Shown here piece after piece: positions 716-36,371 of a DNA stretch of 64,000 nucleotides. Positions within the stretch are counted from its first letter, which is position 1, and every line of letters starts with the position of its first letter. Both the position numbers and the translations under genes were made by a program. Under the pieces are notes generated by a model. It had not been told where the DNA came from and made no database searches. It saw only the letters and a list, made by a program, of their open reading frames with translations. Source of the stretch: Bacillus sp. es.036 (lineage in GTDB: Bacteria; Bacillota; Bacilli; Bacillales; Guptibacillaceae); assembly GCF_002563635.1 (NCBI RefSeq), contig NZ_PDIZ01000001.1, positions 2,604,001 through 2,668,000 of the forward strand, written 5' to 3'.

Positions 716-732
716 GTTTCGAGTTCACTGAA
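716..732 (-). repeat. Array repeat core, degenerate
   Basis: GTTTCGAGTTCACTGAA differs from the consensus GCTCCGAGTTTGTTGAA at five positions but sits where a core is expected, 17 nt past the stop of the peptidase gene. Confidence 0.4.
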
Positions 733-749
733 TAAATATTTAACTTATA

Positions 750-1574
750 TTAGTTGAATTCTTTTAAGATGGATTCAAAGTCATTAAGTATATAAGATTT
801 AATGATTAAACCAAGATTGTTTGGAATTCTTGATATTGCAATAGGTTTTTCCACAGTTGGAACATTAATAACCTTAACTTCCCCCGAAGCAGTATGTTGT
901 GGACCCGCATATAAAACTCCTAAAAGTTTTATTCTTGAACCAATGACCGTATTACCCTTTTTATCATTATAACTTGATGGATTATATAAAAAGACCGGAG
1001 AACCACTGGAGCCTGGGAAGCATGCTGCATCAATCATAAACTCTTGCTTTCCATTATAATTTAACCCTGGATGGGTAGCTGTAATTCCTCGTCTTATAAT
1101 TGGCATATTGTTTATTGCATCCCATATTCCATTTGGATAACCTACCATTACAATTTCTTCAATTGAGTTTAATTCTTTTAATTGATCATTATCCATTAGA
1201 AGTGATTTGTCGACTGGAATATAAAATGGCTTTATCCCTAGTTCTTCAAATTTATATAATATCTGAGCAATAGGAAAAATACATAAATCAATTTCTGAAT
1301 CAGGATGTTTTATCCAACTAGATTCAAAATTACTGATCACTACCTTATGATATCGTCCTTCAATAGGATCTCCGTTGTTATCTGCTAAATTAAAATGAAT
1401 AATACCATCTTTAGAATCTTCGATTACATGTTTATTGGTTACTATAACTGGAATATACCTTTCTCCTTCGTTCATTGCATAAAAGAAACCTGTCCCCGTA
1501 GATTTACCTTCATCTGAAGTACACTCAATCCTCACTGTACTGTAAGTTAATTTTTCCGATAATGATAACCCCAT
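750..1574 (-). CDS. Trypsin-like (S1/HtrA-fold) serine peptidase
   Basis: The 274-residue product has the triad of chymotrypsin-fold peptidases: His49 in TNKHVI, Asp96 in EIDLCIFP and Ser190 in FPGSSGSPVFLY (a GxSGxP nucleophile loop). There is no signal peptide, transmembrane segment or PDZ domain, so it should act in the cytoplasm as a single-domain protease, unlike the membrane-anchored HtrA/DegP proteins. The start ATG has a GGGGAG site upstream. It forms a one-gene array unit with a degenerate repeat core after its stop. Cytosolic trypsin-like proteases occur among accessory genes including defence effectors, but nothing here identifies its substrate. Confidence 0.85.
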   Translation of the reverse strand: MGLSLSEKLTYSTVRIECTSDEGKSTGTGFFYAMNEGERYIPVIVTNKHVIEDSKDGIIHFNLADNNGDPIEGRYHKVVISNFESSWIKHPDSEIDLCIFPIAQILYKFEELGIKPFYIPVDKSLLMDNDQLKELNSIEEIVMVGYPNGIWDAINNMPIIRRGITATHPGLNYNGKQEFMIDAACFPGSSGSPVFLYNPSSYNDKKGNTVIGSRIKLLGVLYAGPQHTASGEVKVINVPTVEKPIAISRIPNNLGLIIKSYILNDFESILKEFN

Positions 1575-1830
1575 AAACTCTCCCCTTCAAGTAAATATTT
1601 TTATGACTAATTGAACCGCGTATGCGTAACTTCTTGATTTAATCACCCTGCACGGATGTTTGAGCATCTGCCGAATTAATTTACTACATAACATGAATGC
1701 TGCATAAACCTCTAATACCAATTATTTCAAAACAATTCACATAACTCAATCTTTTATTTCAGATAAAAAGAGCCTATCTTATTAAAGATAAGCTCCGAGT
1801 TTGTGGAAGACTAGATTTCAAGACAAACTC
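1575..1830. other. Intergenic, array repeat and 5' leader
   Basis: Bases 1575-1713 form the AT-rich leader of the peptidase gene. The rest is the full-length array repeat 1714-1810. No further gene is seen. Confidence 0.5.
1714..1810 (-). repeat. Array repeat, full-length (about 97 nt)
   Basis: It runs from the AATACCAATTATTTCAAA end to core GCTCCGAGTTTGTGGAAGA at 1792-1810. The inner stem is AGCCTATCT / AGATAAGCT and the outer arm is CTCAATCTT. The core lies 20 nt from the stop codon of the next unit (1831). Confidence 0.85.
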
Positions 1831-2280
1831 CTACACTTTATGACTTTTAAAACTTTGGAATGCTTTCACAGCCTCGTTATTAGGATCTTTGCTTAAAATG
1901 AATGCACATACTTCTTTCAGTTCTTGATTTGAAATTAGTTTATTGGGAATTGAACCAAAGAATAATAACATCTCTCTATAAGCTAGATAATTAGGAGAAA
2001 GTTCTATTGCCCTTCTTGTATGGAATAATCCTGATTTGTATGCGCCTTTATAGTCTTTAAAAACATGACACATGAGGTTACAAGCTATACGATGTAACCT
2101 ACTATCTTCTTCACTGCTTAGAAGGTAATAAATGAATGTATAAACACTAATATCTTTTTCTTCAAATGCTATTACCATTATTTCATTTGCAAATTCATCC
2201 ATATCCATTTCGTGTTTAATAACCCTAGCTTCTTCAAAATCACCATTTGAAATAAGCTTGGCCAAGTTAGTTTTTTTCAA
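1831..2280 (-). CDS. Hypothetical protein (149 aa)
   Basis: The start is taken as the TTG at 2278-2280 because it follows an AAAGGGGGC site at the right distance; the longer frame reaching 2382 has no such site and its N-terminus reads through the upstream repeat region. The product begins MKKTNLAKLISNGDFEEARVI and is predicted helical, with a tetratricopeptide-like stretch near RRAIELSPNYLAYREM and SKDPNNEAVKAF. No membrane segment is seen. Function is unknown; it may be a helical-repeat adaptor. It is a single-gene array unit with its repeat core 20 nt downstream. Confidence 0.65.
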   Translation of the reverse strand: MKKTNLAKLISNGDFEEARVIKHEMDMDEFANEIMVIAFEEKDISVYTFIYYLLSSEEDSRLHRIACNLMCHVFKDYKGAYKSGLFHTRRAIELSPNYLAYREMLLFFGSIPNKLISNQELKEVCAFILSKDPNNEAVKAFQSFKSHKV

Positions 2281-2360
2281 AATAAGTAAGCCCCCTTTCC
2301 TAATAAACCTACGATATCCATCCAATTTAGTTTCATACAAGCTAATGTTTTGAAACTGAG

Positions 2361-2442
2361 TCTTCAACAATCTTTTCCCCATTCTTTATTAAAGAAAAGG
2401 CGACTATTCTTAATGAATAATCGCTCCGATTTAAAGGAAGAT
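2361..2442 (-). repeat. Array repeat with inverted partner
   Basis: The core GCTCCGATTTAAAGGAAGA begins at 2423. Its left side folds as GCGA-ctATT / AATaa-TCGC. A reversed core-like arm (TCTTCAACAATC) lies at 2361-2373, so the outer arms pair with each other as in a two-ended recombination hairpin. Confidence 0.7.
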
Positions 2443-2471: not shown

Positions 2472-2645
2472 CTAAGTTGAGTGCTTATTTCCTTTCTTAT
2501 TTCGTCCAAATAAAATAGCAATGAAGAGAAATCCGAACCCTACTATGTTCATAATGGTATTACCTAAATTGCCTATGTCATTAATTTTTAAACCGACTAG
2601 AAAACCACCAAACAAAATAAGTGGAATAACTATAAAAAAGCTCAA
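2472..2645 (-). CDS. Small two-helix membrane protein (57 aa)
   Basis: The gene starts with TTG at 2643-2645, preceded by GGAGG, and ends with TAG at 2472-2474. The protein starts MSFFIVIPLILFGGFLVGLK and has two hydrophobic helices (about residues 3-18 and 31-47) with a basic tail RNKKGNK. It is too short and TTG-initiated, so simple ORF calling on this strand would miss it; a longer open frame on the opposite strand here is its shadow. Array repeats flank it at 2423-2442 (downstream) and 2729-2748 (upstream). Function unknown. Confidence 0.7.
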   Translation of the reverse strand: MSFFIVIPLILFGGFLVGLKINDIGNLGNTIMNIVGFGFLFIAILFGRNKKGNKHST

Positions 2646-2728
2646 AATTATTCCTCCGAACCTATATAGTGCGTTTTACTTTCACTTACTTCTTAAAAGC
2701 CATAAGATACTATGATTATTACAGATTA

Positions 2729-2748
2729 GCTCCGAGTTTCTGTAAAAC
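2729..2748 (-). repeat. Array repeat core
   Basis: GCTCCGAGTTTCTGTAAAAC, preceded on the plus strand by ATTACAGATTA, a shortened remnant of the inner-stem right arm. Confidence 0.75.
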
Positions 2749-2833: not shown

Positions 2834-3472
2834 TTATAAGTAAGCCACGGCAGGGTCATCTCCAAGTTCTTCGATTTTAACGAAATTAAAACGAGCTTCT
2901 TGGCCTTTTCCTTGAGGACTACACGCATAAATGCCAGCTAAGATCTCTTCATCCACGGGATAGTCTAAATGTGCAATACGAATTTGATTCCAACTCTCTC
3001 CATCTCTTGAAAAATCAACATAACAGTTCTGACCGATTTTGGAGATCCTGTAATATAATTCGATGTCTTTGTCATCGACATATTGAGTGGACCAATCTGA
3101 ATATCCTCTATTGGTTACAACAGCCCCCAGCTTACTTGCCCCACCTGGTATGTATTCAATAGAAGTTTTGACCCACACGTCTTCCGAAAATCGTATCATT
3201 AAACCTGCCTGGTCATATTTATTATTCGGTAATGCATGGACCTTTGTTGTCATTCTAAAATTACTGTTTGTTTTTGCATATAAAAAATGCCCATTGTCAG
3301 CACGGAATCCATAATGTGTGTTCTGCCAATAATCGGTTTTCTCATCTGATATGAAAACTAGTTGAGAAGATTCCTTATCTAAGAACCACGTTTGCGGTTC
3401 ACAACGCCACTTAAGTAGATCACTGATGTTATCCCCAACAAAATTCTCTTTTACTATACACTTATTATCCAT
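2834..3472 (-). CDS. DUF1349 family protein
   Basis: The 212-residue product begins MDNKCIVKENFVGDNI. This start is chosen because GGAGG lies upstream at the right spacing; a frame extending to 3508 is probably untranslated leader. Features typical of the DUF1349 family (a concanavalin-like beta sandwich similar to carbohydrate-binding lectin/glucanase folds) are the AGLMIRFSEDVWVKTSIEY segment, DWSTQ and YVDFSRDGESW. It has no signal peptide and probably acts in the cytoplasm. Homologues are annotated as regulators of sugar-like metabolism, but the ligand here is unknown. Single-gene array unit. Confidence 0.85.
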   Translation of the reverse strand: MDNKCIVKENFVGDNISDLLKWRCEPQTWFLDKESSQLVFISDEKTDYWQNTHYGFRADNGHFLYAKTNSNFRMTTKVHALPNNKYDQAGLMIRFSEDVWVKTSIEYIPGGASKLGAVVTNRGYSDWSTQYVDDKDIELYYRISKIGQNCYVDFSRDGESWNQIRIAHLDYPVDEEILAGIYACSPQGKGQEARFNFVKIEELGDDPAVAYL

Positions 3473-3528
3473 GTTTTGACCTCCAATAATAATAGTAGAA
3501 CAAACCAATATTGAGTTATTAACTTTAA

Positions 3529-3548
3529 GCTCCGAGATAATAGAATAA
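3529..3548 (-). repeat. Array repeat core
   Basis: GCTCCGAGATAATAGAATAA lies only 8 nt beyond the stop codon of the GrpB-family gene. Confidence 0.75.
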
Positions 3549-3556: not shown

Positions 3557-4087
3557 TCATTCACCATTTGCTCTTTCTAAGATTTTTGTTATAAAGTCAG
3601 TTTTACCGTATGTATAATCAGCTCTGTCTTTCGCCCTATTAGCTAAGTTTCTTTTGATTCTGTCATACTCAGCTACTGCTTCTGGATCGCTCCGCAGATA
3701 GTCCCTAAAAGCTATGTGCCTTGCCAGCTCATTACTATCTTTGTTGCACACGTATAGATGATGGTCCATCCAATTTGTATTGTTTCCATCCCACGGAGTT
3801 AAAGTATCTTTTCTACCAAATGCTTCTCTTCCTTTAAAACTCCATTCTTCTTGGTGAAAGTAACCTATCTTTTCAAGACCTTTAATAACGGCAGGGACTA
3901 CTTCATAACTTTTCACCACTATATCGATGTCCAAAATTGGTTTCGCTCCAAGACCTTTTACAGCAGTGCTTCCAACATGCTCAACCTTTATTATCAAATC
4001 GGTCAGATTTATTTCGATCACTTGTTTCAATAACATAAATGTTTTTGACCATTGTTCGTCATGCTCATTAATCACAATTTCGGACAA
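3557..4087 (-). CDS. GrpB family protein (UPF0157)
   Basis: The 176-residue product contains VEHVGSTAVKGLGAKPILDI, the signature of the GrpB/UPF0157 family, which adopts a nucleotidyltransferase-like fold; the GSTAV and D-x-D (DIDIV) region matches its active-site loop. The start is the TTG at 4085-4087, preceded by GGAGG at 8-nt spacing; the frame extends to 4129 without a better site. Family members are common in mobile gene arrays and near acetyltransferases; the substrate is unknown. Cytoplasmic. Single-gene array unit, repeat core directly after the stop. Confidence 0.88.
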   Translation of the reverse strand: MSEIVINEHDEQWSKTFMLLKQVIEINLTDLIIKVEHVGSTAVKGLGAKPILDIDIVVKSYEVVPAVIKGLEKIGYFHQEEWSFKGREAFGRKDTLTPWDGNNTNWMDHHLYVCNKDSNELARHIAFRDYLRSDPEAVAEYDRIKRNLANRAKDRADYTYGKTDFITKILERANGE

Positions 4088-4168
4088 TATAACACCTCCA
4101 GATCTCTTGCTAGGTGAATAATTCAACATAGATTAATTGGAGTTCAATCCTCATGATCTTCCATTTTT

Positions 4169-4188
4169 GCTCCGAGATTGTGGAAGAT
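4169..4188 (-). repeat. Array repeat core
   Basis: GCTCCGAGATTGTGGAAGAT, a near-consensus short copy; the plus-strand left side lacks the long stem. Confidence 0.8.
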
Positions 4189-4234: not shown

Positions 4235-5308
4235 TTAATTTATTTTTTTACCGTCTTTGCTTTTAACAACAATCTGATATTCATCTCCATTTACAACTTT
4301 CTTTATCTCTTTTGAGTTAATAAATGTGTTCATCTCATCTTCAATCTCATTTGCTAGCATTGAAGCATTAGGATTAGACTTATCGATTGAAGTGTCAACT
4401 GATAATGTATAAGGATCTGAATAGAATGTAAAACCAACTAATTCAACTTTAAGCTCTCTTTTTCCAATTAATCCTTCTGTTAAAGTGTCGATAACAGGAC
4501 TCCATCGTACTTGTGCTTCTTCTCTTATAGGATCAAATGTATAAACTTTTATTTTGAATTCACCTGATTCTTTTTCTTCTGCAACTTTCCTTACAAAATT
4601 CTTAATCTCTTCTATTCTTGTTTCAGAGACAGGGATTTCAAGTGATATAAACCTCTCTTTGTCATTAATTCGAACATCAGCTGATTGAACCTGATAGTTT
4701 TGCTCGTTTAGTTCACTCATGATTTTTTCGCTAAGACCCAGACTTCTCTTCTCATAATCATCGTACTTCTTTTGCATTTCTTCTGTAATGCCATCGTCGT
4801 ATGGCTCTTGTTCTACTTGAGGATTGGTCACTTCAACAGTGTATGCTCCAAGACCATGCGCATCTAAAATGCTATTACTTTTTTCAATAATATCTTTTTG
4901 GTTTTTTTGATAATATTCGTTAGTACCTTCTATTCCTACGTAAATGGTTTTTTCCCTAAAATTAATATTTGTTCCCTGACTAACTTTAAAGTTTTCTTCT
5001 TTTAGTTCATGGATCAGGAGATCTCCGATGGAATCGACACCGATGGAATCTTCCTTCTCCATCAATTCATTTAGAAACGGTATTTTAGAAACAACAGAAG
5101 CCATTGATGGTGAAACGAATGATAAACTGACAACTAAACCAAATAACAAGACTGCAGCACAGGATATATAGATAACTTTATAATTGATATAGGGTGTATT
5201 ATCACGTTCCCTAATCCTTTCTTTCACTCTTTCTCTAATTCTGTTTTCTCTTTCTAAAGAAAATTGCTCGTCAAATTCGATTTTCCCTTTTTGAACTTCA
5301 CGTTTCAT
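4235..5308 (-). CDS. Membrane-anchored anti-sigma-like protein (DUF4030-type), copy 1
   Basis: A 357-residue protein with a charged cytoplasmic N-terminus (about 1-42, rich in RER repeats), one transmembrane helix (about 44-66, VIYISCAAVLLFGLVV) and a large extracytoplasmic domain built of repeated units with N-terminal beta-strand/helix signatures. It overlaps the sigma gene by 11 bases (stop 5298, start 5308), indicating translational coupling. The topology is that of an anti-sigma factor, with the N-terminal part binding sigma and the outer part sensing. I recall the family as DUF4030. The start ATG has AGGAGG upstream. Two paralogues follow at 6991 and 8808. Confidence 0.75.
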   Translation of the reverse strand: MKREVQKGKIEFDEQFSLERENRIRERVKERIRERDNTPYINYKVIYISCAAVLLFGLVVSLSFVSPSMASVVSKIPFLNELMEKEDSIGVDSIGDLLIHELKEENFKVSQGTNINFREKTIYVGIEGTNEYYQKNQKDIIEKSNSILDAHGLGAYTVEVTNPQVEQEPYDDGITEEMQKKYDDYEKRSLGLSEKIMSELNEQNYQVQSADVRINDKERFISLEIPVSETRIEEIKNFVRKVAEEKESGEFKIKVYTFDPIREEAQVRWSPVIDTLTEGLIGKRELKVELVGFTFYSDPYTLSVDTSIDKSNPNASMLANEIEDEMNTFINSKEIKKVVNGDEYQIVVKSKDGKKIN

Positions 5309-5867
5309 AGTTGCCTCCTTCCAAACCACTAATTTTTTCTTTTAAAAGAAGTCTCCCCCGAGATAATCTCGTTTTAACTGTATTCCTATTCAGTTTTAAA
5401 GCTAGCGCTATTTCTTCTGTATTGAAATCTTGAAAATAAAAAAGGATAATAACTTCTCGATATTTTGGCTGAAGAGACAGAACGATGTCCATCACACTTT
5501 GTCTATTCTCTTTCTCAAGAAACTCATCTTCTGAACTTTTCCTTTTAACAAGCACCTCCATAAGATGAGAGGGGGAATGAAATAAATTATTTTTTCGTTT
5601 TCTCAAAAAATCTTTTGAAGTATTTACTGTGATACGAGAAATCCAAGTTTTTATTGATGATTCTTTTCTAAATTTATGTAGGTTTTTGTAACACTTATAA
5701 AAAACTTCTTGGGCTATATCCTCGGCTAAAGAATGATCTTTCACATATGAATAAGCTAGAAGAAACACTTGTCTTGAATGTTCTTTAATCAACAAATCAA
5801 TCTCCGTTTCACTAGCTGTTTCATCGTCAAATCCTTCCCTATCAAATAATGAATCTCTATTTTTCAC
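5298..5867 (-). CDS. ECF RNA polymerase sigma factor, module 1
   Basis: A 189-residue sigma-70 of the extracytoplasmic function group. Region 2 spans about residues 24-92 with the core motif LAEDIAQEVFYKCYKN and the DNA-melting segment TWISRITVNTSKDFLR. Region 4 spans about 128-180 with PKYREVIILFYFQDFNTEE and the helix-turn-helix ending RNTVKTRLSRGRLLLK. It should direct RNA polymerase to stress promoters when its partner at 4235 releases it. A likely autoregulatory promoter (GAAAC/GTCTA) lies at 5899-5932. A strong AAGGAGG site precedes the ATG. Confidence 0.93.
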   Translation of the reverse strand: MKNRDSLFDREGFDDETASETEIDLLIKEHSRQVFLLAYSYVKDHSLAEDIAQEVFYKCYKNLHKFRKESSIKTWISRITVNTSKDFLRKRKNNLFHSPSHLMEVLVKRKSSEDEFLEKENRQSVMDIVLSLQPKYREVIILFYFQDFNTEEIALALKLNRNTVKTRLSRGRLLLKEKISGLEGGNYET

Positions 5868-6031: not shown

Positions 6032-6084
6032 TCTGAAAATTGCTTGAGCTTATTTAATTTAGTTGCCTACTTAATTACGCAATT

Positions 6085-6103
6085 GCTCCGATTTTGTGGA
6101 AGA
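6085..6103 (-). repeat. Array repeat core
   Basis: GCTCCGATTTTGTGGAAGA, of the GAT subtype lacking the G after CCGA. Confidence 0.75.
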
Positions 6104-6273: not shown

Positions 6274-6368
6274 AATACCAATTATTTCAAAATAGTTCTG
6301 AAAAATCCATCTCTTATACAAAAAAAGAACATATCTATTTTGAGATATGCTCCGAGATACTGGAAGAT
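6274..6368 (-). repeat. Array repeat, full-length
   Basis: Begins with AATACCAATTATTTCAAA and ends with core GCTCCGAGATACTGGAAGAT (6349-6368). The inner stem is GAACATATCT / AGATATGCTC. Confidence 0.85.
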
Positions 6369-6744: not shown

Positions 6745-6797
6745 TTAATTAAAAAGAAGCCTATGTTATTAAAGATAAGCTCCGAGATTGTTGAATA
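6745..6797 (-). repeat. Array repeat, inner stem plus core
   Basis: AGAAGCCTATGTTATT...AAAGATAAGCT followed by core GCTCCGAGATTGTTGAATA (6779-6797); the AATACC end is absent. Confidence 0.8.
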
Positions 6798-8617: not shown

Positions 8618-8686
8618 CTTCAAAACCCCTTCCGATCCTCTTGCCACCTTTAGACTCTTATAGAAGTTAAATGGTTTCATCTATAT

Positions 8687-8695: not shown

Positions 8696-8723
8696 CTCAA
8701 CTATTTTTCCTTTAATACACACG

Positions 8724-10356: not shown

Positions 10357-10385
10357 AATTTTTCCTCCTTTGCGCAATCTACTTA

Positions 10386-10414: not shown

Positions 10415-10514
10415 AATTAAAAAATACACAAAAGAATAATACTAATTAAAAAAGCATTGATCCACAACAGAATCAACGCTTAAATCCCCATTAATTTTAT
10501 ACTTACTTGTAATC

Positions 10515-10531
10515 GCTCCGATTTTCTGTAA
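10515..10531 (-). repeat. Array repeat core
   Basis: GCTCCGATTTTCTGTAA; the GAA end is degraded. Confidence 0.65.
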
Positions 10532-10553
10532 TATGAAATAGTCAAACAAATGA

Positions 10554-10779: not shown

Positions 10780-10834
10780 AAACCTACATAGAGCGCTCAC
10801 TTTTGTTCCGCAAATGCTCCGATATTGTTTAAAA
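10780..10834 (-). repeat. Array repeat, second structural subtype
   Basis: AAACCTACATAGAGCGCTCAC leads into core GCTCCGATATTGTTTAA (10816-10834); the stem is AGAGCG / tGCTC. The subtype recurs at 26108 and 28046. The core ends 5 nt before the ASCH gene's stop. Confidence 0.8.
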
Positions 10835-11289: not shown

Positions 11290-11372
11290 AATATATATAT
11301 CTCCTTATTTTATTCAATTAAATGGCCTGTTACTAATTTAAACAAAAAGGGCATAATTCTTTTTAGATTAAC

Positions 11373-11391
11373 GCTCCGATTATATTGAATA
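11373..11391 (-). repeat. Array repeat core
   Basis: GCTCCGATTATATTGAATA, GAT subtype, preceded by TTAGATTAAC as in the copy at 29207. Confidence 0.75.
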
Positions 11392-11811: not shown

Positions 11812-11852
11812 GAGCCTATCTTATTACAGATAAGCTCCGAGATTGCAGTAAA
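11812..11852 (-). repeat. Array repeat, inner stem plus core
   Basis: GAGCCTATCT-TATTAC-AGATAAGCTC hairpin followed by CGAGATTGCAGTAA; the outer AATACC end is missing. Confidence 0.85.
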
Positions 11853-12228: not shown

Positions 12229-12347
12229 CAGTAATATCACCCTTTTATTTATTCTTTATTGCATTTTCAGGAAGCATTAAAGTGCATAACCCACAATAAT
12301 TCTTTTGTAAGTGTCTATTCAGTTATCAAGCACTATATTGAAGAATA

Positions 12348-12367
12348 GCTCCGAGATACAGGAAGAT
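12348..12367 (-). repeat. Array repeat core
   Basis: GCTCCGAGATACAGGAAGAT, short subtype, closely like the core at 6349. Confidence 0.8.
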
Positions 12368-12725: not shown

Positions 12726-12815
12726 TACCAATTATTTCAAAACTATTTCATTTACACAACCAAATAAAATATGGAGCTTATCTTATTACAGATAAGCTCC
12801 GAGATTGTTGAAGAC
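12726..12815 (-). repeat. Array repeat, full-length
   Basis: TACCAATTATTTCAAA, then inner stem GGAGCTTATCT-TATTAC-AGATAAGCTCC and core GCTCCGAGATTGTTGAAGAC (12796-12815). This is the copy with the most perfect inner stem. Confidence 0.9.
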
Positions 12816-17566: not shown

Positions 17567-18121
17567 TATTTTTTTCTGAAGGTTATGATGAATTTTCTTT
17601 GCTGGACTTTGAAAGGATACTTAAAGTGAGGACCACACACGAAATCAATAGAAGTTAGATATGTATTGACCCTTAGATAAATGGATCGCTCTTATTCGGT
17701 AATGAGAAGAACAGAATTAAAAGTATAACACTATGCATAACCAATTCAATAATCATAGAAAGCAAGGAAAATTTCCATAGAAAAAGGAGCTTATCTTATT
17801 GAAGATAAGCTCCGAGTTTGTTGAACACTGAATTTATTAAACTTCAATGGTGATCTCACAATATGTGAAAACCTTATAACAACTGAAGGGATTGCTTATG
17901 TTAAATTTTCCGCTGACGTAGGAAAATAGCTGGATCTCTTTAAAGACAGAGAGGATGAATCAGAACGAGTGCTTTTCCTTAAAAGCCAACATAGAAGATA
18001 AAAAATTTGAGGATCATGCATTAAATCTTGATCTTCTCTTTTTATCTTAACCTTAGTCTGTTACCACTTTAGCAGCGTGTCGTCAGGCATCTGCACTCAG
18101 ATAAATAACAATGACTGTTCT
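17567..18121. other. Intergenic, array repeat and spacer
   Basis: Holds the repeat at 17786-17826. Bases 17830-18121 contain no convincing reading frame; a weak stem around 18000-18045 may end transcription of the VanZ operon. No other signal is seen. Confidence 0.4.
17786..17826 (-). repeat. Array repeat, inner stem plus core
   Basis: GGAGCTTATCT-TATTGA-AGATAAGCTCC followed by GAGTTTGTTGAA. The core begins at 17809. Confidence 0.9.
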
Positions 18122-25090: not shown

Positions 25091-25128
25091 ATTATCTTAT
25101 TTTAGATAAGCTCCGAGATAATGGAATA
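25091..25128 (-). repeat. Array repeat, inner stem plus core
   Basis: ATTATCTTATTTTAGATAAGCT with core GCTCCGAGATAATGGAATA at 25110-25128; the left arm has lost its GAGC base. Confidence 0.8.
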
Positions 25129-25378: not shown

Positions 25379-25452
25379 CTACTAATTCGTTTTCCTTTCT
25401 TTTTCAAATTTAAAGAAAGAGAGAACCACTACCTTTGCAATCTTCTATTCTC

Positions 25453-25471
25453 GCTCCGAGATAGTTAAGCA
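25453..25471 (-). repeat. Array repeat core
   Basis: GCTCCGAGATAGTTAAGCA preceded by TTCTC, the same variant as at 28440 (TTCTCGCTCCGAGATA). Confidence 0.75.
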
Positions 25472-25760: not shown

Positions 25761-25856
25761 AATACCAATTATTTCAAATCTGCACACAGAACTCAATCTT
25801 TACTTCACATATAAAAGAGCTTATCTTATTACAGATAAGCTCCGAGATTGTTGAAC
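25761..25856 (-). repeat. Array repeat, full-length
   Basis: AATACCAATTATTTCAAA end, ACTCAATCTTTA outer arm, AGAGCTTATCT-TATTAC-AGATAAGCTC inner stem, core GCTCCGAGATTGTTGAAC (25839-25856). A good reference copy. Confidence 0.92.
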
Positions 25857-25880
25857 AATCGCTTCTCTATGAATTAATAA

Positions 25881-26107: not shown

Positions 26108-26163
26108 AAACCTACATAGAGCGCTTACTTATTGTTAAGCAAAAGCTCCGATTAATTTAATAA
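26108..26163 (-). repeat. Array repeat, second structural subtype
   Basis: AAACCTACATAGAGCGCTTAC, then TTAAGCAAAA and core GCTCCGATTAATTTAATAA (26145-26163). The stem is GAGC-gCTTA / TAAG-caaaaGCTC. Confidence 0.85.
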
Positions 26164-26718: not shown

Positions 26719-26770
26719 CTTCCAACGTAAGATTATTTAATTTTAGAATGAAATGATGTATTCCAGATTT

Positions 26771-26788
26771 GCTCCGAGATTGCTTAAT
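26771..26788 (-). repeat. Array repeat core
   Basis: GCTCCGAGATTGCTTAAT, short subtype with a degraded GAA end. Confidence 0.75.
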
Positions 26789-26810
26789 AACTTTTCATTT
26801 TCTTTTAGAA

Positions 26811-27097: not shown

Positions 27098-27194
27098 AAT
27101 GCCGATTTTTTCAAAAAAATCCGCATAACTCAATCTTTAATTCCAGCTAAAAGGAGCTTATCTTATTACAGATAAGCTCCGAGATTGTGGAAGA
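27098..27194 (-). repeat. Array repeat, full-length, diverged outer end
   Basis: AATGCCGATTTTTTCAAA replaces the usual outer end; outer arm ACTCAATCTTTAA, inner stem GGAGCTTATCT / AGATAAGCTCC and core GCTCCGAGATTGTGGAAGA (27176-27194) are intact. Confidence 0.9.
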
Positions 27195-27647: not shown

Positions 27648-27672
27648 GCTATCCCATCCTTATTAAATAAAC

Positions 27673-27691
27673 GCTCCGATTATCTTGAATA
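27673..27691 (-). repeat. Array repeat core
   Basis: GCTCCGATTATCTTGAATA, GAT subtype. Confidence 0.75.
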
Positions 27692-28045: not shown

Positions 28046-28099
28046 AAACCTACATAGAGCGCTTACTTTTATTAAGCAAACGCTCCGATTTAATGGAAC
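28046..28099 (-). repeat. Array repeat, second structural subtype
   Basis: AAACCTACATAGAGCGCTTAC, TTAAGCAAA and core GCTCCGATTTAATGGAAC (28082-28099). The stem is GAGCG-CTTA / TAAG-caaa-CGCTC. Confidence 0.87.
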
Positions 28100-28129
28100 A
28101 ATAAACAAATTGTTATTACGAGCTACTGC

Positions 28130-28339: not shown

Positions 28340-28439
28340 TTATTATTTTGCAACTTACCCTTTTGAAAGAGTTTATATAATTCACCTATCCTAACAATAG
28401 TTGGAAGGTTTAATATTACTCCTACGAACTTCAATTCTC

Positions 28440-28458
28440 GCTCCGAGATAATTGAGTA
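28440..28458 (-). repeat. Array repeat core
   Basis: GCTCCGAGATAATTGAGTA preceded by TTCTC, paired in type with the copy at 25453. Confidence 0.75.
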
Positions 28459-28715: not shown

Positions 28716-28811
28716 TTCATCACTCCATTCAAGGGTTTCAACTAGAGCTTGTAAAAAGCTAAACGAAAAGGTTGAGAAATAGAGTTGATATTTCTGTTTT
28801 ATCCAACATTA

Positions 28812-28830
28812 GCTCAGATTTACTTGAAGA
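28812..28830 (-). repeat. Array repeat core, degenerate
   Basis: GCTCAGATTTACTTGAAGA: one mismatch in the CCGA box, but correct position between two units. Confidence 0.55.
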
Positions 28831-29117: not shown

Positions 29118-29206
29118 CAGCACTTCCCCCGCAATAATGAAATTAGGTCCTTTACTAAAATCCCCTGTAATTCAGTTAAAATGAGCACAAACCTCTCTAG
29201 ATTAAC

Positions 29207-29225
29207 GCTCCGAGATTACAGAACA
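29207..29225 (-). repeat. Array repeat core
   Basis: GCTCCGAGATTACAGAACA preceded by AGATTAAC, as in the copy at 11373. Confidence 0.75.
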
Positions 29226-29235: not shown

Positions 29236-29433
29236 TTATGATTGTTTCCAACCACTGGTTTGTATCCTTAAAACAGAAGCCATTACTCCTATGAGGCAAA
29301 AGATAATTCCTACTGGCAAAATGAAGAATAGTATAAGGTCTGGAATTATTCCAAGGTACGGTAGAATTGTACATACCGGAACTGCAACGGTCAGGGTTAA
29401 TAAGATAATCAAATTTAATTTTTTGGTATTCAA
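29236..29433 (-). CDS. Small two-helix membrane protein (65 aa)
   Basis: TTG start after TAGGAGGA; begins MNTKKLNLIILLTLTVAV, helices about 6-26 and 33-54, end RIQTSGWKQS. No family recognised. Single-gene array unit with its core 10 nt after the stop. Confidence 0.6.
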   Translation of the reverse strand: MNTKKLNLIILLTLTVAVPVCTILPYLGIIPDLILFFILPVGIIFCLIGVMASVLRIQTSGWKQS

Positions 29434-29495: not shown

Positions 29496-29590
29496 AATAC
29501 CAATTATTTCAAAACGCTGCTAATAAATCCATCTTTTTCCCAAGAAAAAGAGCCTATCTTATTAAAGATAAGCTCCGATTATCTTGAAGA
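29496..29590 (-). repeat. Array repeat, full-length
   Basis: AATACCAATTATTTCAAA end; inner stem GAGCCTATCT-TATTAA-AGATAAGCTC; core GCTCCGATTATCTTGAAGA (29572-29590), combining the long stem with the GAT core subtype. Confidence 0.9.
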
Positions 29591-30697: not shown

Positions 30698-31211
30698 AAA
30701 TATCACCCTCCTTAAATCCTTTCCGAAGCTTATTTAACGAACGGTACAATACTGTTTTAGTCGTTCCCAGCGGCATTTCCAATAACTCCGATATTTCCTT
30801 AAATGTATGATGATGATAAAACCTCAAAAGAACAATGCTCTTTTCATCCTCTTCCAACGTGTTTATCAACTCTTGTAACGTTATGGAAAGAGGTATATCT
30901 TCATCCTCTGTCCCTATAAATTCCTCATACTCTTGTTTTAACAGAACCACTTTGTTATTTACTCGAACTAGATTAGTTGCACAGTTTATTGTAATTTTTA
31001 TTAACCATGTTTTGAAATACTCCGGCTTTTTTAATGTACCTATATTTTCAAATGATTGATAAGCTACTTCTTGAACAACATCTAAAGCATCATCTTTATT
31101 TTTTACATACACATAAGCCATTCGATAAATATCTTCTTCATATTGTTGGAATAGTTTTAAGAAGGCTTTATCATTTCCCTTTTGAGCTTTTTTTACTAAA
31201 CGTGTACTAAT
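30687..31211 (-). CDS. ECF RNA polymerase sigma factor, module 5, apparent ATT start
   Basis: Region 2 includes DDALDVVQEVAYQSFENI and TWLIKITINCATNLVR; region 4 includes EDEKSIVLLRFYHHHTFKEI and LGTTKTVLYRSLNKLR. The first in-frame ATG (31121) would remove region 2.1. The frame continues upstream as STRLVKKAQKGNDKAFLKLF to an ATT at 31209-31211, 9 nt after AAAGGG, the expected place for initiation; no ATG, GTG or TTG is available before an in-frame TGA. So either ATT is used, as in infC, or the start is mutated. GTCTAATAG lies upstream (31244-31252). 174 residues as given. Confidence 0.85.
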   Translation of the reverse strand: MSTRLVKKAQKGNDKAFLKLFQQYEEDIYRMAYVYVKNKDDALDVVQEVAYQSFENIGTLKKPEYFKTWLIKITINCATNLVRVNNKVVLLKQEYEEFIGTEDEDIPLSITLQELINTLEEDEKSIVLLRFYHHHTFKEISELLEMPLGTTKTVLYRSLNKLRKGFKEGDICGQ

Positions 31212-31254: not shown

Positions 31255-31404
31255 ATAAAATGGCATTTTGGCTTTATTTATCTTAAATGTTTTCAAATAA
31301 AATAATCGTCCAAACTAAGGACGATTATTTTATGGATTTGAGATCCGTTATTTAACTCTACTTCTCAATGCTACACTGAAAAAGGAATATAGTTTTGAAC
31401 AATC

Positions 31405-31423
31405 GCTCCGAGTTTGCTTAATA
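31405..31423 (-). repeat. Array repeat core
   Basis: GCTCCGAGTTTGCTTAATA preceded by GAACAATC, 10 nt after the stop of the ABC permease gene. Confidence 0.75.
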
Positions 31424-31433: not shown

Positions 31434-33437
31434 TTAATTATTCATAAAAACAAACGACTCTTTGTTTAGTTCACTAATCCCAGAAGAAGATCTCTCGCCT
31501 TCAATATCCACTTGCTTTGTTTTCTTCTTACTTGAATAAATCCCAATCTTCTGCTGTTGAATGTCTATGATACTTTTTACAACTGCTTGTATCGAAAAAA
31601 TGAGAAGAACATATAAAACAAGAACTGGTACAATCAGCCAGTATCGCTCAGTCATGATACCCATACGCATGGTTTCAAACATTCCAGTCCATTCGTAAGT
31701 TAATGACTGTGAAGCCCCACCTCCACTCCTTATCCCTCCTCCTAAAAGTATTCTAAACACACTTAAATGCATTAAAACTTGGAGAGCTTGAATCATTTGT
31801 TGTCCAAAAAGGTGGACTAACTTCGGAAAGAGATGAACTGTAATATGTCGAAATAAGAGTCTACTTTTACTTCCACCTAATAATATGGCTGCTTGTGCAA
31901 AGTCTCTTCTCAGAATTTCCTCAGCTTCACGACCAATTGTATTTAATACAACAGGAACAGCAAACAAAATGAGAATGCTAACTTCCAACATGATATTAGA
32001 CGTCATAGAAGATTCAGCTAAAACCCTTTGGTCTTCATCAAAAATCAAAACATTCACTAACAAAATATACGCAATGAGAGAAAGAGGGAGAAATTGCATC
32101 CCATCAGCAATGTTATTAATGATTCTTTTAGATCGATTTCCTAACCAATATAGATAAGGTATTGCGAGCGCATATCCAATAACAATCCTTAAAAACGCAA
32201 TCAATGCTGTAAGAAGAATAGTGTACTTCGCACCAACCATTAATTTACTTAAAATAGGATGACCATGCGTATCTGATCCTAACAGTAGCACTCCGTCTTC
32301 TGGCGGATGAGGTGGAGCGTGATAAGCGCCTTGTTCATCTTGAATTATTTTAATGGTAGTTACTGGAACTTCTGCAATATAGCTATACATAAAGCTTATG
32401 ATTAAGATCCCCAGTAGATAGATCAACGCCATTACAAACTTTGGCTTTTTACACAGAGATACAAAAAAACGACCCATTTTGTTTATTAATGAAAAAATAT
32501 GTATACCACGATTGGTTAGGCTTTTAGAACCCGTGGAGAATAGTTTCATACCATTCATGGAAACTCTTGAATCATTAAACTCCTCAGCTTGTTTCACATT
32601 AAAAATCCATTCTAGAATACTATAAATGATATAAAATGGTGTAAAAATTAGAATGAGAGTAATCGCTATGATAAACGGTCGAGTATCAAAAAAGATTAAT
32701 CGAACGATACCATAAAAGTTATGTAAATACTCTATTACCAACAAGCTGGATAGTGTGATCCACACGATTGGCTTCGATTGAATCACCAGACTTATTTTAA
32801 TATTCCTTAAGCAGTGCCATATCAAAACATGCATTCGACTAAACCCTTTACTTCTTACTAACTGAACATAATCTTTCTTCCATTCTTCCTCTAACAAAAG
32901 CAAAAATGCCCGATAAAATAAGACTGTTGGTAAGATACATAAAGATAAAATGGGAGACAAATAGATCTTCTCACCTAGATAAGCAAATTCAAACAGTAAA
33001 ATATCAAAAGTCTTATAAATCCAGACTACAAGCATTTGCAGTAAAAAAATAAAAAGAATGTCAGGTAACGCTTCCAAACCATTTAACACAGTATGAATGG
33101 TATGTTTCATCTTATGAGGGAAACCAAAAGTTGATAGGGCAAACATTATTCCAAGAACAATGGCAATCACTAATGCAGCAAAAAGAATCGTCATGGAATA
33201 AAGGTAGTTGTCGAATATGTAGGAAAACAACGGCTTCTCTACTAATTGGTGACCGACATATTGTTGAAAGTACCAATCAGATGGAGTAATGATTGAACGG
33301 CAGACGTCCCATAGATTATGAACGTAGATACTCATATTCAGTTCAAATCCATCTGTAAAAAAAACAGGTATACAACTAATAAATATGATCCCTACAATGC
33401 CTAATATGTATTTATAGAATAGCTCAACAAACTTCAT
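31434..33437 (-). CDS. Fused peptide-type ABC permease (DppB-DppC-like)
   Basis: 667 residues containing two binding-protein-dependent permease units in one chain. The first (about 1-290) has an EAA-like loop EEWKKDYVQLVRSKGF; the second (about 320-640) has EAEEILRRDFAQAAILLGGS and the DppC-type entry LLGSDTHGHPILSKLM. Peptide/nickel importers normally use two separate permeases, so this is a fusion of both half-sites. No ATPase or substrate-binding protein lies nearby, so it must borrow partners or act differently. AAGGTGG precedes the ATG. Single-gene array unit. Confidence 0.82.
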   Translation of the reverse strand: MKFVELFYKYILGIVGIIFISCIPVFFTDGFELNMSIYVHNLWDVCRSIITPSDWYFQQYVGHQLVEKPLFSYIFDNYLYSMTILFAALVIAIVLGIMFALSTFGFPHKMKHTIHTVLNGLEALPDILFIFLLQMLVVWIYKTFDILLFEFAYLGEKIYLSPILSLCILPTVLFYRAFLLLLEEEWKKDYVQLVRSKGFSRMHVLIWHCLRNIKISLVIQSKPIVWITLSSLLVIEYLHNFYGIVRLIFFDTRPFIIAITLILIFTPFYIIYSILEWIFNVKQAEEFNDSRVSMNGMKLFSTGSKSLTNRGIHIFSLINKMGRFFVSLCKKPKFVMALIYLLGILIISFMYSYIAEVPVTTIKIIQDEQGAYHAPPHPPEDGVLLLGSDTHGHPILSKLMVGAKYTILLTALIAFLRIVIGYALAIPYLYWLGNRSKRIINNIADGMQFLPLSLIAYILLVNVLIFDEDQRVLAESSMTSNIMLEVSILILFAVPVVLNTIGREAEEILRRDFAQAAILLGGSKSRLLFRHITVHLFPKLVHLFGQQMIQALQVLMHLSVFRILLGGGIRSGGGASQSLTYEWTGMFETMRMGIMTERYWLIVPVLVLYVLLIFSIQAVVKSIIDIQQQKIGIYSSKKKTKQVDIEGERSSSGISELNKESFVFMNN

Positions 33438-33635
33438 TTCCCACCACCTTAAAAAACACTCAACTTTGAATTTAACAGTTAAATATTCCTATATATGGTA
33501 TACGTCTGATGATTAAGAAAAGTTTCATCTTATAATAAAGTCTTTTATTTAGATGTATAAAATGTGGATTTCTACTTAATAGTTACGAGAGACTATTCAC
33601 ACGTAAGTATATCGATTATCTCGAAACTGAGTCTT
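33438..33635. other. Intergenic between ABC permease and intron
   Basis: AT-rich leader of the permease gene and the 3' exon flank of the group II intron. No gene and no array core is seen. Confidence 0.4.
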
Positions 33636-33685
33636 CATACAGATAGATAAGGGTTTGAAGTTATCGCCCCCTTTTCCCCCTGTTT

Positions 33686-33719
33686 GCACCGTATGGGCAA
33701 CTTTCATCGCGTACGGCGC
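33686..33719 (-). ncRNA. Group II intron domain V
   Basis: A 34-nt hairpin: GCGCCGTA / TACGGTGC lower stem, GCGAT / GTTGC upper stem and a GAAA tetraloop. The catalytic triad position reads CGC. This is the most conserved part of group II introns. Confidence 0.9.
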
Positions 33720-33777
33720 GCCAACTAATCCAATTCATTCTTTCGATGTAATGAATAAAGCCGATTTATATTAAATC

Positions 33778-35592
33778 TTAGATTGCTTGAAGATTGCACT
33801 GCCTTCGAAGATCATTTACCTTTTCTTTTTGAGTGTTTTCCAGCTTTAATTCTTTAAGGATCGCTTTAATTTTAAGTGGATCCTTTAAATGTACAAGCCG
33901 GTGAACGGGTTCATATAACACGATCAGGTTAGAGAATCGATCATCTTTTGAAAGATGATAAGGTCTCTTATGATGACAGTGCCAGTCTGATAATCCAAGC
34001 TCTGTTCCCGTTACAGCACACTTACCGTACTGAGCGATGAACTTACTAATGCGATTATCATTGTATTCAATCGTTCGATTTGGTATATAGTTTGACATGA
34101 CATAGTTAAGTACATTTTTCTGAATCGCTTTTAGGTTCTGGTGAATTTTCGCCCTACCTTTCGCAGTATAGTTACAGGTTTCTTGCGAAAAACATAAGTT
34201 GGTTTTATGCCGTTGCGCATAAATCGGGACGAATACCATGTCTTGAATCTTATAATATTGGGGTTCATACCCTTTAAAGCGTTTTTGTAGCGTACTTGTC
34301 ATGTCTTTAAACTCAGCTTCTTTTCTCACGTCTTTTAATCGGTTGTATAATGTCCTGCGAAGATAGAAGTTCAACTCATGTAAATTATTTGTGATATGAG
34401 TGGCGGCAGCGTAATAATTCTGGATCCCCATGACAACTGTATTGAAATGCCAGACGGTCTCAGCACAAGGCTTTTTATGGATTGCCTTGATGGATTCTTT
34501 CATTTTCCTTTTGGCATTTGCTTTGGCTTTTTTCGACATATTTGAATGAGCCACAAATCCTTTTCTCGTCTTTCCTTTCTTGACAGCTCGAAACGTAAAT
34601 CCTAGAAACTCTGAAGAGTTTTTCTTTAGGTTTACTACTTTCGATTTTTCTTCACTTGCCTCAAGATGAAGTCTTGTATGGAGAAAATCCTTTATGGCAT
34701 AATTCATTTTCATTGCTTGTGAGCGTGTACGACATAAGACTTTGAAATCGTCCGCATAACGGACGATGTAACATTCTTTTAAATTTGACCTCTTCAGCGC
34801 TTGTATTTTACTTCCATTATGTTTGTACTGATGGCTAGTCTCCAGAGTTTCCCATTGGTTACTAATCCACCAATCTAGTTCATTTAACACAATGTTGGAT
34901 AGAAGTGGAGAAATGATACCGCCCTGTTGCGTTCCTCTGGTTGGTATGCCTTCTCCTTCAACCTCTGCCTTCAGAAGCTTTGAGATAATAGAAAGCAATG
35001 CTTTATCCTTTATACCAATAGACCAGATCTGTTTCAGTAATTTGCTGTGATTGACGTTATCGAAGAAGCCTTTAATATCAACGTCAATACAATGATAAAG
35101 TCCACTCAAATTGATAAGAGACTCGAATCTCGCTTTTGCGTGATGCGTACTTCGATTGGGTCTAAAACCATAGCTGTGTTTGTGGAATTTCGCCTCACAA
35201 ATCGGTTCTAGGACTTGTAAAATACATTGTTGAAGAATTCGGTCCCAGATGGTGGGTATCCCCAACGGTCTCGTTTTGCCGTTGGCTTTTGGTATTAGAA
35301 CACGTCTAACGACTTCAGGCTGGTAGGATTGAAGCGTGTTTTGAACTTTCTCAATGACTTCTTCTACAGACAGAGATCGAATGTCATCGATGGTTAATTT
35401 ATTAACACCTGCCGTTTTACTTCCCGTATTTCGTTTGATATTTCGATAGGCAAGACGTATATTTTCGTTCGAACAGATAATATTCATTAAGTCATAGAAA
35501 TTCTGACCATTAACACTTTGAGCGTACAGATTATCAAAGCAGTGCTCCATATTGTAATACTCAGAGTGTCTCAGTTTCTTCCGTTTCAACAA
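33778..35592 (-). CDS. ltrA: Group II intron reverse transcriptase/maturase with HNH endonuclease
   Basis: 604 residues. Reverse transcriptase domains (about 50-350) include RRVLIPKANGKTRPLGIPT, GTQQGGIISPLLSN and catalytic YADD (279-282). The maturase X domain (about 370-480) includes NYYAAATHITNNLHELNFYL. The C-terminal HNH domain (about 525-580) has CAVTG, WHCHHKRP, NLIVLYEPVHRLVHL. It splices its own intron and performs target-primed reverse transcription at the DNA site. The TTG start follows GGGAG. Domain structure (RT-X-HNH) excludes the shorter IIC-type proteins that lack HNH. All motifs are intact. Confidence 0.95.
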   Translation of the reverse strand: MLKRKKLRHSEYYNMEHCFDNLYAQSVNGQNFYDLMNIICSNENIRLAYRNIKRNTGSKTAGVNKLTIDDIRSLSVEEVIEKVQNTLQSYQPEVVRRVLIPKANGKTRPLGIPTIWDRILQQCILQVLEPICEAKFHKHSYGFRPNRSTHHAKARFESLINLSGLYHCIDVDIKGFFDNVNHSKLLKQIWSIGIKDKALLSIISKLLKAEVEGEGIPTRGTQQGGIISPLLSNIVLNELDWWISNQWETLETSHQYKHNGSKIQALKRSNLKECYIVRYADDFKVLCRTRSQAMKMNYAIKDFLHTRLHLEASEEKSKVVNLKKNSSEFLGFTFRAVKKGKTRKGFVAHSNMSKKAKANAKRKMKESIKAIHKKPCAETVWHFNTVVMGIQNYYAAATHITNNLHELNFYLRRTLYNRLKDVRKEAEFKDMTSTLQKRFKGYEPQYYKIQDMVFVPIYAQRHKTNLCFSQETCNYTAKGRAKIHQNLKAIQKNVLNYVMSNYIPNRTIEYNDNRISKFIAQYGKCAVTGTELGLSDWHCHHKRPYHLSKDDRFSNLIVLYEPVHRLVHLKDPLKIKAILKELKLENTQKEKVNDLRRQCNLQAI

Positions 35593-36345
35593 GTCGGTGA
35601 CTCCCTTAGGAGTTGAACCTCTTTTAGTCTCACGAGAACCTTATTAATCGATAAAGAACTGTCTTACATGGTTGAATGATCTTCATTAGTCTAGTGGCGA
35701 TCCCTCCATGTGAATTAGACATTTCATTGGTACTGTGCCACCACTTTCACTGATATTAAGGTAAGTTATACAGTTGTTATTCTCACAATTGTTTTCCTTA
35801 TCACCATTTCATCGGAAGCAAGTCCTCCACGTTATCAGCTTACAACGTTGAATTATATCTATTATAGAAAGAAGTTAGGTGCTTCCTGTAAGCCTGTTAG
35901 TCGTTCATGCGCCTTTAACACACCGTGGACTTTCATATTTACGAGTTTTACTCATCCACTACTAACCTCACTCTTGGTGATATACACATTTCTATGTATT
36001 GCAGTTATAGACCTGTACCTTCAGAAGTTCGTCAGCTTAACCTCTATTCTTATAGGTTATACGCATTCTCACCATGTTCTTTCAACCCAAGCATTATGAT
36101 TCACACCACCCCCGCAGGTAGGTTTTCGTCAGCCGATCCTGTTACGGTGAATTCTCACGCCTTTTCATCGAGCTTATAACACTCTTATCCTTGCTAATTC
36201 AAGTGCTATTCGACTAAGAGAGAGCCCTTCAAGACGTTACGCTATCATTTGACTCTTCGATATAATCCTTCAGTTCTGTAAAGAACTGTCTAACTTTTAC
36301 CTGAGTAATGTGACCATTCTCAGTTTAATTAGAAACGTTTCGCAC
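35593..36345 (-). ncRNA. Group II intron RNA, domains I to IV 5' part
   Basis: Non-coding structured portion between the intron 5' end and the maturase start. Short open frames on the plus strand here (35848-36179) are artefacts of RNA structure. Confidence 0.7.
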
Positions 36346-36354
36346 CACAAAACT

Positions 36355-36371
36355 GCCCGATTGCTGAAGAT
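36355..36371 (-). repeat. Array repeat core, degenerate, at intron insertion site
   Basis: Plus strand GCCCGATTGCTGAAGA against consensus GCTCCGAGATTGTTGAAGA. In gene direction it reads TCTTCAGCAATCGGGC and is followed within 10 nt by the intron 5' end. Confidence 0.55.

Follow-up and report, generated by a model that had tools for sequence, protein, structure and literature searches.

We consider it very probable that a 64,000-nt stretch of the 4.34-Mb genome of Bacillus sp. es.036 (positions 2604001-2668000 of contig C1; hereafter the window) holds one array of an integron-like gene-cassette platform of Bacillaceae, in which a 280-amino acid (aa) Xer/XerA-like tyrosine recombinase acts on 31-bp sites. 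The motif word of this array, GCTCCGAG/T (GCTCCGAK), had 27 exact matches in the window, 27/27 on the + strand and spanning 1792 to 31412, against a chance level of 1.8 on average and 5 at most in 100 shuffles of the window, which bears out the 27 clear copies counted in a preliminary description of this DNA. With up to two mismatches allowed, the full site matched 29 times against 2.85 expected; 28 of these matches lay inside the array and the one outside (45172) is chance-like. Genes between the window cores were almost all on the - strand, so that the core sits past the stop codon, as the same description had stated; the stop-to-core distance had a median of 48 bp over the cassettes of the genus. 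For the three degenerate copies that it had also listed, plausible candidates were found with GTTTCGA and GCTCAGA cores (Table 1).

Each site has the form TNTT-N8-GCTCCGA-N8-AANA. In an alignment of 80 cores (arrays 1 and 2 of this genome plus two outliers), T-N-T-T occupied -12 to -9 and A-A-N-A +15 to +18, symmetric about the centre of the 7-bp core. The 384 sites, drawn from 24 segments in ten genomes of the genus, comprise 234 distinct left arms and 225 distinct right arms; once the right arms are reverse-complemented, the two sets have the same base profile and similar inner preferences, with T at the three anchors in 0.85/0.91, 0.85/0.87, and 0.87/0.92 of left/right arms. The site is two inverted 12-bp arms flanking an asymmetric 7-bp centre, and inverted arms around a short centre are the form of a tyrosine-recombinase core site; the symmetry of the arms suggests one enzyme rather than two. 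Near-variants of the core were rare (34 one-mismatch against 342 exact copies with at least five anchors; 4 matches for a reversed-core control), as duplex-duplex exchange would require. Orientation was almost uniform, with 384 sites lying along their array and 1 against it in the 24 segments.

Three such arrays occur in this genome (G000), all with the core on the + strand. A stricter 31-bp pattern matched 56 times genome-wide, 53 times within the three arrays and 3 times singly elsewhere, and the reversed control pattern 0 times. Among 14 genomes of the genus, the strict site was present in 12 (6 to 56 copies each) and the control pattern in none; G001 had neither sites by the strict pattern nor a 280-aa recombinase gene in a homolog search at E 1e-40. 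An Rfam scan of the window returned three matches, two to an intron and one to a tRNA, and zero at the sites.

Cassettes were defined as the stretches shorter than 12 kb between neighbouring sites, giving 359 with a median length of 707 bp. A simple caller found an open reading frame (ORF) in 343 of them, exactly one in 225 of these, and the main ORF ran opposite to the core strand in 323/343. The 593 cassette proteins fell into 394 families, including 290 singletons. When every cassette with 300-bp flanks was searched against all arrays (at least 90% identity and 80% coverage), 261 ordered matches were obtained, of which 101 started exactly at the G of GCTCCGA and 60 stopped exactly after the next GCTCCGA. 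These were the commonest end points, and smaller peaks lay a few bases beyond the core, where right arms chance to agree. As unordered pairs, left ends fell in -2..+1 for 90/204 and right ends in 7..10 for 84/204. Both strands were searched, and array direction was kept in 280/280 cassette matches. Of 281 cassette clusters, 44 were common to different genomes and 20 were repeated within one genome, and the same right neighbour was retained in 2 of the 106 homologous pairs with a known right neighbour. At the array 3 locus, whose flanks are syntenic in several species, there were 19 sites in G000, 2 in G009, 7 in G008, and 24 in G004. Judged from these alignments, the arrays consist of cassettes exchanged as single units, whole units apparently being gained, lost, and reordered at the core, and ordinary homologous recombination is disfavoured because the shared stretch would be too short. 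The proposal of the preliminary description that a cassette-like system moves units here is supported by this exchange.

That description had also called for a search for a recombinase gene shared by genomes with these cores, and one was found. The genome has ten matches to PF00589, one of which is a 280-aa protein; its gene, at C1:2769468-2770307, and the first full site of array 3 are 1.9 kb apart. Orthologs were located next to or within arrays in G002, G004, G009 (where there are two sites), and G010; in G011 the gene neighbours a single site at a contig end, 91 bp away from its start codon. A diverged 280-aa enzyme in G012 is encoded beside an array with 13 copies of the core GCTCCC, and the G013 gene, near a contig end, had no sites within the available flanking stretch. 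The conserved leader of the recombinase gene in the genus terminates in a left half-site. R138, K162, H229, R232, H255, and Y264 were invariant in 14/14 aligned proteins and are the presumptive catalytic residues. The protein scored 132.6 bits on PF00589 (cut-off 27.1) and, among NCBIfam models, 219.1 on XerA_Arch (just under the cut-off of 220), 205 on XerC (335), and 197.5 on XerD (329.6). The integron integrase model TIGR02249 gave 94.8-98.6 bits in three orthologs, below its cut-off of 265 and hence short of an IntI-type integrase; the match falls in two stretches, and their coordinates suggest that the gap is the site of the IntI insert. Among the other nine tyrosine recombinases of the genome, part of a single one was scored on this model and also fell under the cut-off. 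The predicted structure had a mean predicted local distance difference test score of 80.8 with a weak C-terminus, and its best Foldseek match in the PDB was XerA (5hxy) at a template modelling (TM) score of 0.57, a value suggesting that the domains match better than their arrangement. With a tyrosine-recombinase fold, the R-K-H-R-H-Y residues, and Xer as its nearest relative, the enzyme is of the Xer type.

Long strings of such cassettes appear to occur in soil and marine relatives of Bacillus, and the recombinase family extends well beyond the genus. A homolog at E 1e-40 was present in 81/299 sampled genomes of the order, in 43/116 genera. In a scan of named genomes, the best 80 of 535 stretches encoding a relative were retained; among these 80, relatives occurred in Pseudalkalibacillus, Sutcliffiella, Neobacillus, Lysinibacillus, Pontibacillus, Fictibacillus, Peribacillus, Rossellomorea, Sporosarcina, Virgibacillus, Halobacillus, and others. 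A de novo search for a recurrent GC-rich 6-7 bp centre between the same arms, with one arm mismatch allowed, found at least four copies of one core in 29/80 loci, against 1 to 3 in shuffled loci; the threshold of four was chosen given that, of the 46/80 loci with at least three copies, a few look like other repeats (L173, L185, and L190). A first set of flanks, from genomes partly the same as in the 80-locus set, had at least four copies in 17/40 loci. The cores found were GCTCCGA, GCTCCC, GCGCCC, GCACCC, GCCCCC, TGGCCC, and CTGCCC, and one fully supported branch had GGGTGC, GGGGCAG, GGTCAG, and similar cores. Set against the recombinase tree, GCTCCGA was confined to the Pseudalkalibacillus branch, GCACCC was mainly found in Fictibacillus, and the GGG type occurred in one branch, such that the core appears to change broadly with the recombinase branch while the arms stay. 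In the 29 loci, the main cassette genes ran with the recombinase gene in a first group (105 to 9) and against it in a second (43 to 13); when read in the direction of the genes, the core is GGGNGC-like in either group. Two repeat families near recombinase homologs were unlike the sites: an array to the right of the homolog in L112, with the words ATGGTTAC and GTTACACT 14 times each, and a 14-copy family of the word GGAAATATG in Lentibacillus persicus (L090).

Sites also recurred at set distances from the recombinase gene. One lay 50-265 bp upstream of its start in 33/79 loci and 5-220 bp past its stop in 26/78, each against 60/729 control windows drawn from the same loci with array sites included. 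The upstream site was often at +156 to +170 (GCGCCC or GCACCC) or, in the second group, at +77 to +86. Its placement is attI-like, and it is a putative insertion point. In the 299 genomes, the GCNCCC site matched 2359 times against 572 for the control, and 42 genomes, none with the control, had at least 12 matches. The 299 were assigned by hand to 11 genomes of the own genus, which were left out, 42 with a full recombinase gene (match at E 1e-100 or better), 17 with fragments, interrupted genes, or weaker matches, and 229 remaining genomes, some of which encode distant homologs at 31-41% identity. At least 12 sites were present in 16/42 genomes with the full gene against 19/229 of the remainder (Fisher p = 3.6e-6, uncorrected for relatedness among genomes). 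The counts reached 145 in G181 (L092), 116 in Pontibacillus marinus (G220, L085), and 106 in G263 (L084), with 4, 0, and 1 for the control; more than 100 sites per genome are numbers like those of large superintegrons.

Taken as a mechanism, the 280-aa recombinase would bind the two near-identical 12-bp arms of the site and exchange strands within the 7-bp core GCTCCGA, in duplex rather than folded single-stranded DNA. Insertion of a circular one-site cassette would take place either at an array site or at the attI-like site close to the recombinase gene, and excision between two direct repeats, so that gene gain, loss, and shuffling would proceed by single units. A terminator-like hairpin, adjoining the core on the 5' side of the gene, would come with many cassettes, and a sigmaA-type promoter with some, in which case array position should matter little for expression.

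Several observations weigh against the proposal that the 280-aa enzyme moves these cassettes. Recombination itself was read from sequence and none was observed. In the exchange analysis, alignments extended more than 60 bp past the core in 11/204 pairs on the left and 2/204 on the right, and with one pair per cluster, exact ends were seen in only 31/68 on the left and 34/68 on the right. Arrays 1 and 2 have no adjacent recombinase gene. G003, G005, G007, and G008 have sites and no homolog at E 1e-40, and none of the PF00589 matches of G006, which was outside the sample of that homolog search and also has sites, scores between the 131 and 139 bits reached by the eight orthologs; sites in five genus genomes devoid of an ortholog imply that arrays persist, or are moved, without the 280-aa enzyme. 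At the syntenic locus of G008, the recombinase gene is missing and the array remains. Across the order, 51/80 named loci showed fewer than four copies of one core in the available flanks, GCGCCC and likewise GCCCCC recurred in several branches of the tree, and the 19 genomes noted above reached 12 GCNCCC sites while belonging to the 229 without the gene, again implying that arrays persist, or are moved, in its absence.

The window array, with its recombinase gene 134 kb distant, is CALIN-like (cluster of attC sites lacking integron integrases), and the genus genomes that have sites and no 280-aa gene resemble CALINs as well. The recombinase beside array 3 could act on the window array in trans. 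That it is instead an inert relic, with cassettes gathered in the past and no longer moving, is unlikely, though the likeliest of the alternatives. A relic would fit the absence of a 280-aa family recombinase within the array, some degenerate cores, and the group II intron beyond its last site; on the other side stand the open recombinase gene 134 kb away, with the same core nearby, and the 98% identity of window cassettes to copies in arrays 2 and 3.

Folding of 150 of the 319 distinct sites addressed whether sites might be recombined as folded single strands, as in attC, with a hairpin of the left half as the substrate. DNA to the left of the core, where the cassette gene has its 5' end, folded better than its shuffles by 3.7 kcal/mol on average; the margin was 0.3 for the right side and 0.15 for random array positions, which is what such folding would predict. 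However, only 61% of left halves fell below -5 kcal/mol (29% of right halves and 29% of random array positions), leaving many sites with no good left-half hairpin, and a general attC-like hairpin requirement was rejected as not seen. GAGC, the complement of the first bases of the core, was present upstream of the core in 88/319 sites (control word 11), and in 44/88 of these an A-rich + strand lay behind it, a T-run for an incoming transcript, as in intrinsic terminators. The rarity of core variants also favours duplex exchange, and we regard folded substrates as improbable. A module located about 76 bp from the core was common to 79/359 cassettes; TTGAGT-N15..19-AATAAT was found in 48/359, with a 17-bp spacer in 46 of these. 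We read hairpin and module as a terminator plus a sigmaA-type promoter, by which such cassettes would be insulated and self-expressed; most integron cassettes are not.

Slightly less probable still is that the sites are substrates of host XerC/XerD, as in the dif modules of Acinetobacter plasmids, with the 280-aa enzyme a bystander. Inverted arms around a 6-7 bp centre do resemble dif, two XerC/XerD-like proteins are encoded in all 14 genus genomes, and arrays persist in the five genomes that lack the 280-aa enzyme. Yet sites are absent from G001, which encodes both Xer-like proteins, and in G012, which likewise encodes the pair, the core beside the diverged 280-aa enzyme is GCTCCC. Moreover, sites stand at set distances from the 280-aa gene, the enzyme co-occurs with arrays, the symmetric arms suggest one enzyme and not two, and the core differs between branches. 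Immobile terminators or dispersed repeats, which would explain why many cores are part of terminator-like hairpins and which the preliminary description had tied to cores spread genome-wide with no gain or loss of units, have next to no standing given the concentration of strict sites in three arrays (none for the control) and the exchange of units at the core between unconserved neighbours.

The proposed 280-aa recombinase platform shares with integrons, superintegrons, and CALINs a one-orientation array of mostly one-gene units that each have one directional site, a site near the gene for a tyrosine recombinase, unit-wise shuffling, arrays lacking an integrase, and group II introns in or at sites. 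Unlike integrons, its recombinase reaches only 95-99 bits on the integrase model and seems to have no IntI insert, in place of foldable attC it has short sites in which inverted arms flank a 6-7 bp core, about a fifth of its cassettes share a promoter-like module, and genes in this genus point toward the recombinase. The folded hairpin with paired R''/R' boxes that defines attC was not found, hairpins being confined to the left half and not general, and no attC covariance model was run. A plain integron is thus ruled out by the IntI model score and the site structure; of the integron-like character first proposed, the cassette platform stands and the integron in the strict sense does not. As far as abstract beginnings and general knowledge allow comparison, dif modules likewise place gene units between short two-arm Xer-type sites, whereas the present system has a dedicated family of enzymes with cores of its own, arms that are symmetric, and chromosomal direct-repeat arrays of up to 51 sites in one orientation. 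XerA is nearest in sequence model and fold. XerA, XerH, and XerS each act as one enzyme on a near-palindromic site and resolve chromosome dimers at one site, whereas here there are many sites and a probable role in gene capture. In parts, we conclude, the system is nearer to Xer/dif recombination than to IntI/attC. Integrons are almost absent from Bacillota/Firmicutes, where IntegronFinder 2.0 gives one complete integron, that of Limnochorda pilosa, and a few CALINs (PMC9024848), and the sections of a tyrosine recombinase classification that treat Xer and integron enzymes as separate subgroups do not mention a cassette role of Xer-like enzymes (PMC8138268). No description of such a system was found in the open-access literature, covering no preprints and few subscription papers, which is weak evidence of novelty.

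A second kind of site may mark the borders of the platform or serve a related recombinase. In 14/24 genus segments, the last GCTCCGA site was followed on the same strand, at a distance of 0.3 to 5.2 kb, by a well-formed CTGCCC site; of these 14, G002.a1, G004.a1, and G005.a2 had a further + match elsewhere and G002.a2 an opposite-strand match. The G008.a1 match was internal only. The other nine segments had no intact CTGCCC site and include the three G000 arrays, where the sites are intron-split, and segments cut by the fetch or contig limit. The group II intron is present in three near-identical copies in G000 and in none of 13 relatives by a 223-base probe; in arrays 1, 2, and 3, respectively, the copy lies past the final GCTCCGA site by about 2.2, 18, and 0.3 kb. 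At array 1, its - strand flanks read TCTTCAGCAATC-GGGCAG-TTTTGTG, intron, GAAGAC, which places it within one arm of a CTGCCC-core site. The right limit of 36371 given in the preliminary description is the last base of the block common to the intron copies and the adjoining half-site, and it falls in a site with this other core. Group II introns, including group IIB, have been described in integrons and CALINs (PMC7923331). Taking fork direction from the position of dnaA and the point facing it across the circle, 25/25 strict sites in G009 pointed against fork movement, so that genes run with the fork, as did 20/21 in G008, the exception lying 0.2 Mb from the assumed terminus; this replichore-linked orientation may reflect only gene orientation bias.

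Table 1. Sites, cassettes, and array limits in the window, followed by the three arrays of the genome (window coordinates unless C1 is given).
Feature	Position	Strand	Content	Basis
Site-like palindrome, other core	662..692	+	TATTGAGCTAAC-CAGCCCC-GTTAGTTAAAAA; left edge of region	6/6 arm anchors
Degenerate site	716..734	+	GTTTCGA + right arm GTTCACTGAATA, past stop of trypsin-like gene 750-1574(-)	Read by eye; Pfam Trypsin_2
Site 1	1780..1810	+	Cassette on its right, ORF 1831-2382(-)	31-bp pattern
Site 2	2411..2441	+	Small ORF 2472-2645(-)	31-bp pattern
Site 3	2717..2747	+	DUF1349 gene 2834-3508(-)	Pattern, Pfam
Site 4	3517..3547	+	GrpB-family gene 3557-4129(-)	Pattern, Pfam
Site 5	4157..4187	+	Two genes: sigma factor 5298-5867(-), DUF4030 protein 4235-5329(-)	Pattern, Pfam
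Site 6	6073..6103	+	Short cassette	1 mismatch
Site 7	6337..6367	+	No clear ORF	31-bp pattern
Site 8	6767..6797	+	Two sigma factor-like/partner gene pairs 6991-10377(-)	Genes named by resemblance
Site 9	10503..10533	+	Short cassette	2 mismatches
Site 10	10804..10834	+	ASCH-domain gene 10840-11289(-)	Pattern, Pfam
Site 11	11361..11391	+	ORF 11424-11696(-)	31-bp pattern
Site 12	11822..11852	+	ORF 11896-12240(-)	31-bp pattern
Site 13	12336..12366	+	ORF 12434-12694(-)	31-bp pattern
Site 14	12784..12814	+	5-kb cassette: ORF 12874-13335, penicillin-binding protein 13375-15381, ORF 15407-16972, sigma factor 16965-17519 (all -)	Pattern, Pfam
Site 15	17797..17827	+	7.3-kb cassette: VanZ, histidine kinase, response regulator, DUF1093, FtsX permease, ABC ATPase (18122-24687, -)	Pattern, Pfam
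Site 16	25098..25128	+	ORF 25145-25378(-)	31-bp pattern
Site 17	25441..25471	+	ORF 25493-25681(-)	31-bp pattern
Site 18	25827..25857	+	ORF 25881-26075(-)	31-bp pattern
Site 19	26133..26163	+	DUF4269 gene 26170-26718(-)	Pattern, Pfam
Site 20	26759..26789	+	ORF 26811-27005(-)	31-bp pattern
Site 21	27164..27194	+	NUDIX gene 27216-27647(-)	Pattern, Pfam
Site 22	27661..27691	+	ORF 27699-27995(-)	31-bp pattern
Site 23	28070..28100	+	ORF 28130-28339(-)	31-bp pattern
Site 24	28428..28458	+	ORF 28485-28715(-)	31-bp pattern
Degenerate site	28800..28830	+	Core GCTCAGA, then DUF3953 gene 28881-29123(-)	Pattern, Pfam
Site 25	29195..29225	+	ORF 29236-29433(-)	31-bp pattern
Site 26	29560..29590	+	Two genes: sigma factor 30687-31121(-), DUF4179/DUF5643 protein 29678-30706(-)	Pattern, Pfam
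Site 27	31393..31423	+	Last GCTCCGA site, then transporter gene 31434-33437(-)	Pattern, Pfam
Group II intron	33637..36345	-	Reverse transcriptase (RT) ORF 33778-35592 (604-aa RT protein)	3' end agrees with Rfam; 5' end inferred from GTGCG start
Distal site	36353..36370	+	Core CTGCCC + arm GATTGCTGAAGA; other arm split by intron (CACAAAA 36346-36352, GTCTTC 33631-33636)	
Array 1	1792-31405	+	27 cores	
Array 2	C1:1623513-1667937	+	51 sites	
Array 3	C1:2772210 to ~2790321	+	19 sites	

Sigma factor genes with partner proteins recur as cassettes in the window, three by Pfam and two further look-alikes, and in the genus a sigma factor family, with 9 members, ranks second among the cassette protein families by number of repeats; the gene pair of site 5 is present with equal lengths in array 2. 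Searched against plasmids, window 1700-26600 gave two matches, 41 bp in Pseudalkalibacillus hwajinpoensis and 1.5 kb at 78% in a record labelled Klebsiella grimontii (CP079755), the latter a copy of the sigma factor/DUF4030 pair at 8841-10347; contamination or mislabelling of this record seems likelier than transfer. To the right, the low-GC array gives way to DNA of about 41% GC near a tyrosine integrase gene and tRNA-Ala (38959-40324). This 408-aa integrase (38959-40185) was considered and rejected as the cassette enzyme; its architecture is different, and it is the 280-aa enzyme that is encoded beside sites in several genomes.

The proposed cassette platform has a good case for being an independent invention. 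We think it fairly probable that Bacillales evolved the integron principle a second time, with order-wide platforms on which self-contained transcription units are moved from one duplex site to another by a Xer-derived recombinase, recombinase branch and 6-7 bp core co-evolve into many mutually incompatible cassette pools, and CTGCCC or TGGCCC sites delimit the platforms. A comparable cassette reservoir in Bacillaceae and their relatives would mean that cassette capture arose more than once; it might account for much of the accessory gene content in these genera and would yield recombinase/site pairs with different cores. As to why Gram-positive bacteria lack integrons, part of the answer may be that many use something else.

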